From: an alpha proteobacterium HIMB114
Lineage (GTDB): Bacteria > Pseudomonadota > Alphaproteobacteria > Pelagibacterales > Pelagibacteraceae
Assembly: GCA_000163555.2 (NCBI GenBank)
Contig: ADAC02000001.1
Location: 620,001-684,000 of the forward strand
Length of the DNA: 64,000 nt
Direction: 5' to 3'
Position numbers and translations under genes: made by a program. This document shows positions 7,227 through 36,217 of the stretch, piece by piece. The first letter of the stretch is position 1. Every line of letters begins with the position of its first letter. A model generated the notes under the pieces. The model worked only from the letters and a program-made list of their open reading frames with translations, was not told where the DNA came from and did not search any database.

Positions 7227-8045
7227 ATGAGCAAATTTGTAGCTGAAAGTTTTTATACGTGTCTTTTCAAAATAAGTCATAAATTAAATGAAATAAGTAA
7301 CGATTCTCTTAAAGAAATAGACAAAAGAGATGATGGAAAATTTGAAATTATTGATGTTAAATTTAATAAAAGAAAAACTAAAGCGATAGGGGATATTAAA
7401 AATACTTCAAAACAGGCTCAAACTGAAGACCTTAAAGATTTAATTCAAAACAGTGTAAATGAAGCTCCAAAAAGCTCAGGTGTAGAAAATAATTTAAACG
7501 ACAAGAATTTTAACTTCAGAAGAAGAATGCCTGATAGAAGAAAGGCATATATTCAAAAGGCAACAATTGATGACAATAAGGTTTATTTACATATTGGAGA
7601 GTATGAAGACGGTAAGATTGGAGAAATTTTCATTGATACTAATAAAGAAGGCGAACTTGTAAAATCAATGATGAATAATTTTGCTATAGCAATATCACTA
7701 GGTCTACAATACGGAGTTCCTTTGGAAGAATATGTTGATGCATTTATTGATACCAAGTTCGAGCCATCTGGAAAAGTGCATGGTAATGACCGTATTTTAA
7801 GTGCAACCTCTATATTGGATTATATCTTTAGGGAATTAGCAATCTCTTATTTGGGTAGAGAAGATTTGGCCCACACTCCATCAATTAAAAAGGCTGAATC
7901 TGCGGAAGCTTCAAGCCCAGAAGAAGCCAAATTTCTTGATGTGCTTAAAAATGTTACAAGTAAGGGATTTGTAAGAAATCAATATAAAGAAAAGTTAGTA
8001 GATCTTACAAATGTGAGATTAAATATTAAAAGTAAAAAAGCCTAA
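7227..8045 (+). CDS. Stand-alone TSCPD-domain protein resembling the C-terminal region of B12-dependent ribonucleotide reductase
   Basis: A 272-residue protein. Residues about 98-217 ([70 protein letters not shown]) match the C-terminal TSCPD-type domain of adenosylcobalamin-dependent ribonucleotide reductase NrdJ as I know it. The whole catalytic barrel with its active-site cysteines is absent, as is a C-terminal CxxC pair. The first 97 residues are charged and not recognised. The start is supported by a good ribosome binding site, and the 3' end overlaps convergent aspS by four bases. This is either a retained and repurposed fragment or a regulator or partner of another reductase; the role is not known. 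Confidence 0.8.
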
Positions 8046-32138: not shown

Positions 32139-33578
32139 GTGGACGATAGATTAAAAGAAGAGTGTGGAATATTTGGTGTGTATAATCACCCAGAAGCTTC
32201 TGCATTAGTAGCTCTTGGATTACATGCGCTTCAACATAGGGGGCAGGAGGCATGTGGAATAAATTCTTTTGATGGCAAAAATTTTTATTTAATTAAAAGA
32301 AGAGGTCTAGTCGGAGATAACTTTACAGACCCAAAAATAATAGAACAATTAAAAGGTCATACAGCAATTGGTCATAATAGATATTCTACTACTGGTGCCC
32401 CACTAATTAGAAACATACAACCTTTTTTTGCTGATCTTCATACCGGAGGTCTTGGAATTGCACATAACGGAAATTTAACTAATGCAATAAATATAAGAGA
32501 GAAAATGGTAAAAGATGGAGCAATATTTCAATCTACTTCAGATACCGAAACTCTTGTTCAATTAATAGCAAAATCAAAAAGATCAAAAACAATTGATAAA
32601 ATTATTGATGCAGTTTTTCAAGTTCAGGGCGGTTATGCATTAACTATTATGACTAATAAAAAATTAGTCGGAATTAGAGATCCATTTGGTATTAGACCGC
32701 TTGTATTAGGTAAATTAAAAGGCTCTTATATATTATCCTCTGAAACTTGCGCTCTTGATATTATAGGTGCTGACTTTATAAGAGAAATAGACAATGGAGA
32801 AATTGTTGTCATTGATAAAAATGGAATTGAGAGTATTAAACCCTTTCCAAAAGTAAAACCTAGGCCATGTGTCTTTGAATATGTTTATTTCTCAAGACCA
32901 GATAGTATTGTAGGTGGAAAAGCTGTTCATGAATATAGAAAAAATTTAGGCTCCGAATTAGCAAAAGAAATGCAAATCGATGCAGATATTGTCTCTGCTG
33001 TACCCGACTCAGGCATCCCGGCTGCAATCGGATATTCAAACCAATCAAAAATAAATTTTGACATGGGAATTATAAGAAATCACTATGTCGGAAGAACATT
33101 TATAGAGCCTACTCAACAAATTAGACAATTGGGCGTAAAGTTAAAACACAATGCAAATAAAGAAATTATTAAGAATAAAAAATTAATTTTAGTTGATGAC
33201 TCAATAGTAAGAGGGACTACATCAAAAAAAATTGTGGATATGCTTTATAATGCTGGTGCAAAAGAAATACACTTGTGTATTTCAAGTCCTCCGATTAAAC
33301 ATCCTGATTATTATGGAATTGATACACCAAATGTTAAAGATTTAATTGCCGCTAATCATTCTGTAGAAGAAATTAGAAAATTAATTGGTGTTAATACTCT
33401 TCAATTTCTCACTATTGAAGGATTGTATAAAGCGCTAGGGTTTAACGAGAGAGATAATATAAATCCACAATTTACAGACCATTGCTTTACAGGTGAATAT
33501 CCGGTCCAACCAATAGATCAATTAAATCAATTTGAAAAAAATAATCAATTATCTTTATTGAGCAACGTAAGGATTTAA
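32139..33578 (+). CDS. purF: Amidophosphoribosyltransferase
   Basis: Commits PRPP to purine synthesis by glutamine-dependent formation of phosphoribosylamine. The 479-residue protein starts at GTG (32139), giving an eight-residue propeptide before the nucleophile Cys9 (EECGIFG), as in propeptide-processed PurF. Glutaminase motifs LQHRGQEACGI and GHNRYSTTG are present, and LILVDDSIVRGTTSKKIV is the PRPP loop. Cysteines in the C-terminal part (ETCALDIIG, HCFTG) could support an Fe-S cluster in some family members, but I cannot assign one. It converges on der. Confidence 0.97.
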   Translation: MDDRLKEECGIFGVYNHPEASALVALGLHALQHRGQEACGINSFDGKNFYLIKRRGLVGDNFTDPKIIEQLKGHTAIGHNRYSTTGAPLIRNIQPFFADLHTGGLGIAHNGNLTNAINIREKMVKDGAIFQSTSDTETLVQLIAKSKRSKTIDKIIDAVFQVQGGYALTIMTNKKLVGIRDPFGIRPLVLGKLKGSYILSSETCALDIIGADFIREIDNGEIVVIDKNGIESIKPFPKVKPRPCVFEYVYFSRPDSIVGGKAVHEYRKNLGSELAKEMQIDADIVSAVPDSGIPAAIGYSNQSKINFDMGIIRNHYVGRTFIEPTQQIRQLGVKLKHNANKEIIKNKKLILVDDSIVRGTTSKKIVDMLYNAGAKEIHLCISSPPIKHPDYYGIDTPNVKDLIAANHSVEEIRKLIGVNTLQFLTIEGLYKALGFNERDNINPQFTDHCFTGEYPVQPIDQLNQFEKNNQLSLLSNVRI

Positions 33579-33582
33579 AAAA

Positions 33583-34395
33583 TTAAGAATAAGGATTCTT
33601 ATTATTCAAATATTTTATTACGGCAACTTGATTATAAATTTTTAGTTGAAGTAAAACTTGCTTGATGAAGAAATTTTTATAATCTTTGCTCAATGATGTG
33701 AGTTTGTTTCCAAATGCTTTAAATATTATTGGATTTGTATTAACATGCTTCAAAAATTTTATTACTGGTCTACTATTTTTTGAAAAAACTGGTTGATGCT
33801 TATCAAGTATATTTTTAAGAACATCATTAGTATCTTTATTTTTAATTAGATATTTAGAATTATAATAAATTTCATAAATTTTTTTTAATAAAAATTCTCT
33901 TTTAACATTTTTTAAAGCTGATATAAAAATTGGCTTTAATAATATATTTGGGTAGTTTTTATCAAAGAAAAATTTAAAATAATTTTCTTTTTTTTTTAAG
34001 TTCTCTTGAATCAAATCTGTTTTATTTATAATAACAATAACGCTTTTTAATTTATTTAAAATTAGTCTGAATAATTGCTTATCATTTTTAGTAATTACAT
34101 CACTACCATCTAGTACAAAAAAAACTACGTTTGACATATTTAGTTGCTTTATCGTGTAACTAGTTATCAATTTTTGCTTATTATCATGGGATTTAGATTT
34201 CTTTTTCAAACCTCCGAGGTCAATCAAATTAATGTTCAAATTATTAAATTCCTTTGGTGAAATTATTGGGTGAACCGTTGTTCCAGATATTTCACTTACA
34301 TCAGATATATTTTTTCCAAGTATTTTGTTAAAAATAGTTGATTTACCAACATTTGGCTTTCCTATAATACAAACATTAAAGACATCGCTCATCAA
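33583..34395 (-). CDS. der: Half-size Der/EngA GTPase: one G domain plus KH-like domain
   Basis: Der normally has two G domains plus a C-terminal KH-like domain (about 440-490 residues) and acts in 50S maturation. Here only 270 residues exist. One G domain has G1 GKPNVGKS (12-19), GTT (G2), DLGG (G3, in place of DTAG), NKTD (G4) and SAL (G5). A KH-like tail ends HQPVFSKNSRPVIKFLKHV ... NPYS, typical of Der. The switch II-like stretch LKKKSKSHDNKQKLITSYT resembles the second G domain of Der, so the first seems lost. The start overlaps bamB, so no upstream G domain is hidden. The bamB-der order matches other bacteria. Confidence 0.85.
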   Translation of the reverse strand: MMSDVFNVCIIGKPNVGKSTIFNKILGKNISDVSEISGTTVHPIISPKEFNNLNINLIDLGGLKKKSKSHDNKQKLITSYTIKQLNMSNVVFFVLDGSDVITKNDKQLFRLILNKLKSVIVIINKTDLIQENLKKKENYFKFFFDKNYPNILLKPIFISALKNVKREFLLKKIYEIYYNSKYLIKNKDTNDVLKNILDKHQPVFSKNSRPVIKFLKHVNTNPIIFKAFGNKLTSLSKDYKNFFIKQVLLQLKIYNQVAVIKYLNNKNPYS

Positions 34396-35648
34396 TATTG
34401 CAGGATTTGATTATTAGTTCTTATATAAAAATTATTTTTTAAAATAATCATTTCATTAAACCCTTTAAAATATTTTTTTTTAATTTTGATCTGATTTAAA
34501 TTTCTATTTTCTATAGAGATTAATGAACCTCCTTTATCAAATAAATAAATCAACTTTTCACTTACTAATAACTCTTCGAAATCAAAAATGTTATTATTTA
34601 ATTTTATTTGTTTATTAAATAAAATTTTACCATTATTTTTGTTGATTATAAAAAATCTATCTTCAAATACATTAAATAAGTATTTTTCTGATACAACAAA
34701 TCTTTTATTTGAATAAATTGGCAGTGCCCATTTTATTAAACCTGATTGGCTATCAATTGCATACGTATTTCCATTGTTATTAGAAATAAATATATCTCCG
34801 TTTTGATCAACTGTAATTGGACTTGATTTTGAAACAATTGGTATATTTACAAAATTTTCAGCTCCAAACGTTAAAGACCAAGTGACAGTATTATTTTTAA
34901 GATCTAAACAATAAATATTTGAACTATCATTTGTAAAAAAAATTTTATTTTTAAATATAGCAATTCGATATGAACTTTTATCATTTATTTTTTGGGATGG
35001 TGTTTCGTAGCTCCAATTTAGATTTCCATTAGAAGAATTAATGGAAAATATTTTGCTATTACTATTAATAATAAATAAATTATTCTTATGAATTTTTATA
35101 TTTGAATTAAAAGGGACACCGAAACTCTTAGTCCAAATTAATTTTAAATCATCTAAACTATAACAGTTAATATTTCCCAAATTATCTGAGATATATAAAT
35201 TTTTTTTATAAATAATAAGTGAAAAATTTAAAGAATAATTTTTATATATCTTTTTTTTATAAATTTTTTTTGAAATGAGTTTCCTAAAATCTTTATTATA
35301 AATTTTGATTTCTGACTGTTTATTAATTGTAATAATTTTATCATGATAAATAACAAAATTTTCTATTTTCTGATTTAAAGAATTTTTTTTATTTATAATA
35401 TTAATCTTTACTGGATAGATTAAATTTTTTGGGTTTTGATTTTTTTCTCTCCAATCTTTAAAAAATGAAAAATCTCTAATGCTTATTTTATTTATTATTT
35501 TTATATCTTTATTATTTAAATTTTTATTTTTAATTAAATCTATTTTTTTTCCTTGTTTGATAAAAGACTCATAGTCAACTAAAAATTCGTCTTCTTTATT
35601 GCTACATGAAAAACAAAGTAGCAGAAATATTAAAAAAAATTTATTCAT
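34392..35648 (-). CDS. bamB: BamB-like outer-membrane assembly lipoprotein (PQQ-type beta-propeller)
   Basis: A 418-residue protein with a short lipoprotein-like signal (FLLLCFSCSNKEDE, with a probable lipidated Cys at about 15). Repeated blade motifs of the PQQ-propeller type follow, such as SINSSNGNLNWSYETP, AIDSQSGLIKWALPI and IINKNNGKILFNK. BamB supports the BAM complex that inserts beta-barrel proteins. Gene order yfgM-like, bamB, der is that of E. coli and many alphaproteobacteria. The lipobox has Cys at -3, slightly atypical. Both ends overlap their neighbours by four bases. Confidence 0.87.
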   Translation of the reverse strand: MNKFFLIFLLLCFSCSNKEDEFLVDYESFIKQGKKIDLIKNKNLNNKDIKIINKISIRDFSFFKDWREKNQNPKNLIYPVKINIINKKNSLNQKIENFVIYHDKIITINKQSEIKIYNKDFRKLISKKIYKKKIYKNYSLNFSLIIYKKNLYISDNLGNINCYSLDDLKLIWTKSFGVPFNSNIKIHKNNLFIINSNSKIFSINSSNGNLNWSYETPSQKINDKSSYRIAIFKNKIFFTNDSSNIYCLDLKNNTVTWSLTFGAENFVNIPIVSKSSPITVDQNGDIFISNNNGNTYAIDSQSGLIKWALPIYSNKRFVVSEKYLFNVFEDRFFIINKNNGKILFNKQIKLNNNIFDFEELLVSEKLIYLFDKGGSLISIENRNLNQIKIKKKYFKGFNEMIILKNNFYIRTNNQILQY

Positions 35649-36217
35649 TTATCTTTTTTTAAAATTTGATTTGCTTTTATAAATTGATTATTTTTTATAT
35701 AAAAATCATATAATAATTTTTTTTTAATATTAATAAAAGTATCTGATTCTTGATCGATTTTAATAAGATTTAATATTTCTGCTTCATTTAAACTATCATA
35801 AAGAAGTAATGTTTTTTTTATCTTTATTAAATCATCTAATTCTTTGTTTTTGAACTTATGTTTTAATTCACTTATTTTTTTTATTGCTAAATTATAATTT
35901 TTTTTTTTAATATTTATATCAATCAATTTATTTACAGAAAGAGATACTATTGTATCATTATTACTTAAAATTAAATTGTTTAAAATTCTAATTGACTCAA
36001 CTAAATTTTCTTCCGATAATATTTCAGCTCTTAAATACTCAGTTATCAATTTTTCATTGTTTTTATTTTGGACATAAACAAATAATTGAAAGATAATTGG
36101 TATAAAAATAATAATAACAGCTAAAGATATTATTTTTTTTTTATTTATATTATAAAACTTCGATAACTTATCTTTAAAAAGCTCATCTTCAATAACTATA
36201 TCTATTTCTTTTTTCAT
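35645..36217 (-). CDS. YfgM-like single-pass tetratricopeptide protein
   Basis: A 190-residue protein with a basic cytoplasmic N terminus, one membrane helix (about residues 29-48, IISLAVIIIFIPIIFQLFVYV region) and a helical periplasmic part with TPR-like repeats (NYNLAIKKISELKHKFKN). YfgM proteins bind the Sec translocon and chaperones in E. coli. The call is supported mainly by its place directly upstream of bamB and der. It is Lys/Ile/Asn-rich and divergent. Confidence 0.68.
   Translation of the reverse strand: MKKEIDIVIEDELFKDKLSKFYNINKKKIISLAVIIIFIPIIFQLFVYVQNKNNEKLITEYLRAEILSEENLVESIRILNNLILSNNDTIVSLSVNKLIDINIKKKNYNLAIKKISELKHKFKNKELDDLIKIKKTLLLYDSLNEAEILNLIKIDQESDTFINIKKKLLYDFYIKNNQFIKANQILKKDK

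Follow-up and report, generated by a model that had tools for sequence, protein, structure and literature searches.

The der gene of the alphaproteobacterium HIMB114 encodes a Der GTPase that consists of a single G domain of the second type (GD2) followed by a KH-like domain, and lacks the first G domain (GD1) altogether. Der, Era and EngB are regarded as ribosome-assembly GTPases that almost all bacteria possess and that are mostly essential, and as drug targets. The gene, which lies in the stretch of DNA analysed here (64,000 nucleotides, hereafter the window), is unique in its genome and GD2-like rather than GD1-like; it is conserved and under purifying selection among relatives, and cleanly absent from a sister clade. 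The loss of GD1 is order-wide and constitutes a midpoint toward the full loss of der together with era, which goes beyond what an earlier note on this locus had envisaged. We interpret the protein, with a probability of about 0.68, as a functional natural half-Der: a product of ancestral GD1 deletion that would act as a stand-alone GD2-KH GTPase docking late 50S, and that was later lost with Era. Both the docking on 50S and the GTPase activity are inferred, with no experiments behind them.

The gene lies at 33583..34392 on the minus strand and encodes 269 residues. The earlier note had drawn the frame at 33583-34395 with 270 residues; its place stands, but not its start, since the ATG at 34392 is preferred over the TTG at 34395. 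The bamB stop codon (TGA, 34394-34392) and this ATG (34392-34390) form a TGATG overlap with one base common to both, which leaves no space for a first G domain ahead of the Der frame, in agreement with the earlier view that there was no room upstream. In the profile search, TIGR03594 is matched at positions 176-423 of 432 only (175.8 bits against a cut-off of 306.7), and its positions 1-170 find no match in this frame. Pfam recognizes one MMR_HSR1 domain (E 3e-21) and one KH_dom-like domain (E 1.5e-8), the latter of the EngA type (PF14714, 35.2 bits, above the cut-off of 27.3). The G domain comprises residues about 3-180 (33853..34386, minus strand) and the KH-like domain, also delimited in the predicted structure, residues about 185-263 (33604..33840, minus strand).

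All five G motifs are in place: GKPNVGKS (G1/P-loop, 34339..34362, invariant in A1 apart from V/S), GTT (G2), DLGG (G3), NKTD (G4, 34015..34026) and SAL (G5), all on the minus strand. G3 is accompanied by the basic switch II stretch LKKKSK (34192..34221 for both, minus strand), which fits the pattern G-x-R/K-R/K-x-x-K/R found in nearly all GD2 domains compared, whereas the same position is mostly acidic in alphaproteobacterial GD1 domains; the likeness of this stretch to the second G domain had been correctly recognized. Measured against what defines Der/EngA, the protein has a GD2 with G1-G5 and an EngA-type KH-like domain, and fails on the two tandem G domains and on the curated score of 306.7 bits. 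As a separate observation, G3 in the single-domain Ders of family f1 reads D-x-GG, like GD1 of several other bacteria, while switch II remains GD2-like. Assignment to Era was rejected (TIGR00436, 60.8 bits against a cut-off of 116.25, positions 3-166 only, with a separate Era present), as was assignment to EngB/YihA (TIGR03598, 52.2 bits against 124.45).

As to where the lone G domain came from, 28/28 single-domain proteins score higher with a GD2 profile, derived from full-length Ders, than with the GD1 profile. In trees, a branch with SH-aLRT 100 sets GD1 apart, and the single-domain proteins group together. The profile preference and the support of the GD1 branch together rule out a GD1 origin. 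The lone G domain is thus outside GD1; the trees do not decide between a position inside GD2 and one immediately beside it, given that a topology with GD2 alone on one side is not rejected (AU p 0.82) and that the root of the single-domain clade is unresolved when HIMB59-like domains are included.

Structural prediction, one of the checks that the earlier note had proposed, gave a confident AlphaFold2 model (pLDDT 89.7, pTM 0.87), whose best solved match is the ribosome-bound Der of B. subtilis (9bsl_W, TM 0.86, 3.0 A, 267 columns). The model is more distant from the free crystal forms of Der (TM about 0.77) and from Era (TM 0.57). The idea of a Der minus its first G domain is borne out by profiles, structure prediction, synteny and whole-genome search, with the trees excluding a GD1 origin.

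The same architecture recurs within Pelagibacterales (SAR11). A full Der over the cut-off occurs in 275/289 genomes drawn across the class and in none of the 298 sampled genomes of the order. A GD2-KH Der was detected at E<=1e-34 in 31 genomes of the order, belonging to genera g1, g6, g8 and g12 of family f1 and g15-g17 of family f2; the remaining genomes of the order, closed ones included, have no Der match at that threshold. At relaxed thresholds, the closed Der-less genomes G010, G023, G045 and G048 gave only matches of MnmE, IF-2, Obg or YchF length. Most of the genomes are drafts, and our claims lean on the closed ones, with der in G000, G006, G012 and G145 and without it in G010, G023, G042, G045 and G048. 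In one of the 31 genomes, G033 (L031, f2 genus g17), the single-domain der is split by a frame break, and whether this is an assembly error or a pseudogene is unresolved. Among named contigs, the matches were mostly full-length Ders from other groups; the only single-domain SAR11 loci (L049 and L050) came from the Pelagibacteraceae MAG CP.31 and the single cell SCGC AAA028-D10, an LD12 cell. CP31 has been placed in SAR11 subclade IIIa.3 (PMC10030771).

Some observations concern other small alphaproteobacterial genomes. No Der was found in G465 and G458 (99-100% stated completeness); another genome from the genus of G465 does have a full Der. In family f27, whose three genomes (G334 among them) are HIMB59-like, Der has both domains in one gene with a very low score (L043, L044, L045), and no NKxD can be recognised in its first G domain, a case of decay in parallel in a further small-genome lineage. 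Era was not found in the f27 genome G334.

Gene order records the loss of der. Upstream of der lie bamB (34392..35648, minus strand; TIGR03300/PF13360) and a gene for a TPR_21-like protein (35645..36217, minus strand; weak Pfam match), and purF (32139..33578, plus strand; named from our own reading of its sequence) converges on it from downstream, all three placements being supported by synteny. Those f1 genomes with der retain the arrangement panB-TPR-bamB-der facing a convergent purF, and in f2 bamB-der persists without purF. At the bamB/purF junctions L148 and L149 of Der-less genomes, der is cleanly missing and nothing is left: in G008 (L148) the end of bamB is at 7984 and that of purF at 7986, and in G024 there is a 4-base overlap between them. 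In closed genomes of g4, a genus inferred to be Pelagibacter, purF no longer adjoins bamB. Across this locus, identity to G006 is 46% for bamB, 72% for der and about 90% for purF, bamB changing much faster than its neighbours.

The distribution of Era follows that of the half-Der closely. Era was found in 20/118 genomes of at least 90% completeness, and 17 of the 18 Der-positive genomes of at least that completeness are in this Era list; the one outside it, G250, carries an ORF of 278 aa that gives an Era-like match. Three genomes with Era, G032, G035 and G088, have no Der match at 1e-34; all are drafts, and G035 has a partial Der. When the Era of the HIMB114 genome was used as query, Der-less genomes yielded nothing beyond cross-hits to G domains, most with the length of MnmE or Obg. 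Moreover, rnc and recO abut, with era missing, in 7/7 Der-less genomes inspected (L176-L182), and lepB-rnc-era-recO is intact in G145, G012 and G025. The seven genomes without Der and Era form one clade (100/100) in a seven-protein tree rooted on f2, which places the double loss of der and era on one branch, with the caveat that this tree includes few genomes and one outgroup.

EngB is over its cut-off in none of the 118 genomes of the order, and the EngB-profile matches listed with coordinates all fall at Der or Era loci, that is, they are cross-hits. Since YbeY and RbfA were detected in 29/32 and 32/32 of these genomes, respectively, the absences of Der, Era and EngB do not reflect a general failure of detection. 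We hold it to be very probable that the set was dismantled stepwise, with EngB and the GD1 of Der lost in the ancestor of the order and half-Der and Era lost jointly later in the Pelagibacter lineage, whose very abundant free-living members would build ribosomes without Der, Era and EngB by an unknown bypass.

What the half-Der might do can be approached from work on other species. When full Der sits on 50S, GD2 occupies the P site, the KH domain points toward the peptidyl-transferase centre and GD1 is found close to the L1 stalk (PMC13278734). In M. smegmatis EngA, 50S binding needs G4 of GD2 and not G4 of GD1; GD1 blocks this binding when GTP is absent, and EngA without GD1 keeps ribosome binding, freed from the nucleotide need (PMC3323550). 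GD2-KH of B. subtilis binds nucleotides normally and hydrolyses GTP about 150-fold more slowly than GD1 (PMC3466195), and YphC is reported to fulfil its function without requiring hydrolysis (PMC12560758). Slow hydrolysis and GD1-independent binding in those species point toward GD2-KH as a docking module without a gate, which for SAR11 remains an inference. In this reading, an ancestral SAR11 lineage would have deleted the first G domain, leaving GD2-KH as a stand-alone GTPase. This half-Der would most likely still dock on late 50S intermediates, with its G domain in the P-site space and its KH-like domain toward the peptidyl-transferase centre, and without the GD1 gate its docking should depend less on nucleotide. 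In the Pelagibacter lineage, the remnant Der and Era would both have been removed cleanly at a later stage. Against this docking view, GD2-KH of B. subtilis alone is a poor GTPase. The sister clade also manages without the gene, whose role may for that reason be minor or altered.

An altered role could mean that the protein no longer matures 50S and acts elsewhere, for instance on 30S like Era. Such neofunctionalisation seems to us unlikely, yet it deserves consideration: single-domain Ders change fast, with 25-50% identity between genera, they occur exactly where Era occurs, a protein that likewise combines one G domain with KH, and GD2-KH of M. smegmatis also binds 30S (PMC3323550). However, the profile and the structure of the protein are closest to 50S-bound Der and far from Era (TM 0.86 against 0.57), and these genomes still carry Era as well.

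The complete loss of the gene in the sister clade and the broken frame in the relative G033 might also suggest a non-functional relic, decaying on its way to the full loss seen in Pelagibacter. This is very doubtful, considering that dN/dS is 0.05-0.12 in close pairs of f2 relatives and pN/pS is 0.10-0.25 within the genus of the window (with synonymous sites near saturation), that all five G motifs are kept and that the gene is intact in two families. Judged by these substitution patterns, the single-domain Der is under purifying selection and is not a pseudogene.

There is practically no case for a split Der, with the first G domain encoded elsewhere and acting in trans, for which no evidence was found and which is already refuted for this genome: in the single contig of 1,237,371 bases (99.96% complete, the window being its bases 620001-684000), a whole-genome search with the Der profile at E <= 0.001 revealed neither a second Der nor a free GD1, either of which the earlier note had wished to see sought, and every other GTPase match belongs to another family (MnmE, Era, ObgE, IF-2, LepA, BipA and YchF, as named by NCBIfam) or is one of two further weak matches whose lengths fit elongation factors. 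Equally negligible, and equally without evidence found in its favour, is an assembly or annotation artefact, in which a frameshift or a lost segment would hide the first G domain; the overlap of bamB stop and der start speaks against it, and the recurrence of the same structure across dozens of separate assemblies, some of them of closed genomes, with this architecture seen in about 30 genomes assembled separately, refutes the assembly error that had been named as a possible refuter.

The half-Der shares with Der/EngA/YphC (TIGR03594; PDB 2hjg, 1mky, 3j8g, 9bsl) the GD2, the KH-like domain, G1-G5, the basic switch II, the bamB-der gene order and the ribosome-bound fold, and differs in lacking the first G domain, in its half length and in scoring under the curated cut-off. 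Its domain content is that of the laboratory constructs B. subtilis GD2-KH and M. smegmatis C-ter EngA, the latter of which binds ribosomal subunits without nucleotide (PMC3466195, PMC3323550); those are artificial truncations, whereas GD2-KH in SAR11 is natural and the only form in the whole order. In Era, too, a KH-type domain follows one G domain, but its KH domain and profile differ, and it is a separate gene in this genome, lost together with the half-Der in the sister clade. The HIMB59-like f27 Ders also come from small-genome Alphaproteobacteria and have a decayed first G domain, with both domains still in one gene. In CPR bacteria, der and era are also absent from reduced genomes (PMC12641178); SAR11, in contrast, are free-living Alphaproteobacteria in which this state is derived and the half-Der stage survives. 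A survey from 2025 reported losses of this kind in CPR bacteria alone, and its text does not mention SAR11 (PMC12641178). In the open-access literature, we found no description of a natural single-domain Der or of der/era losses in SAR11.

Our findings describe a natural half-Der that points to GD2-KH as the part kept longest, and offer a minimal protein for probing the role of GD1. They also indicate that the "essential" Der and Era can be shortened and discarded by free-living cells, and the co-loss with Era in a free-living clade runs counter to the published view of such losses as CPR-bound. Marker-gene sets with der or era would understate the completeness of SAR11 genomes. The clade without der and era comprises the most common ocean bacteria of the order, and this co-loss makes the assembly of both ribosomal subunits without these factors a testable question.
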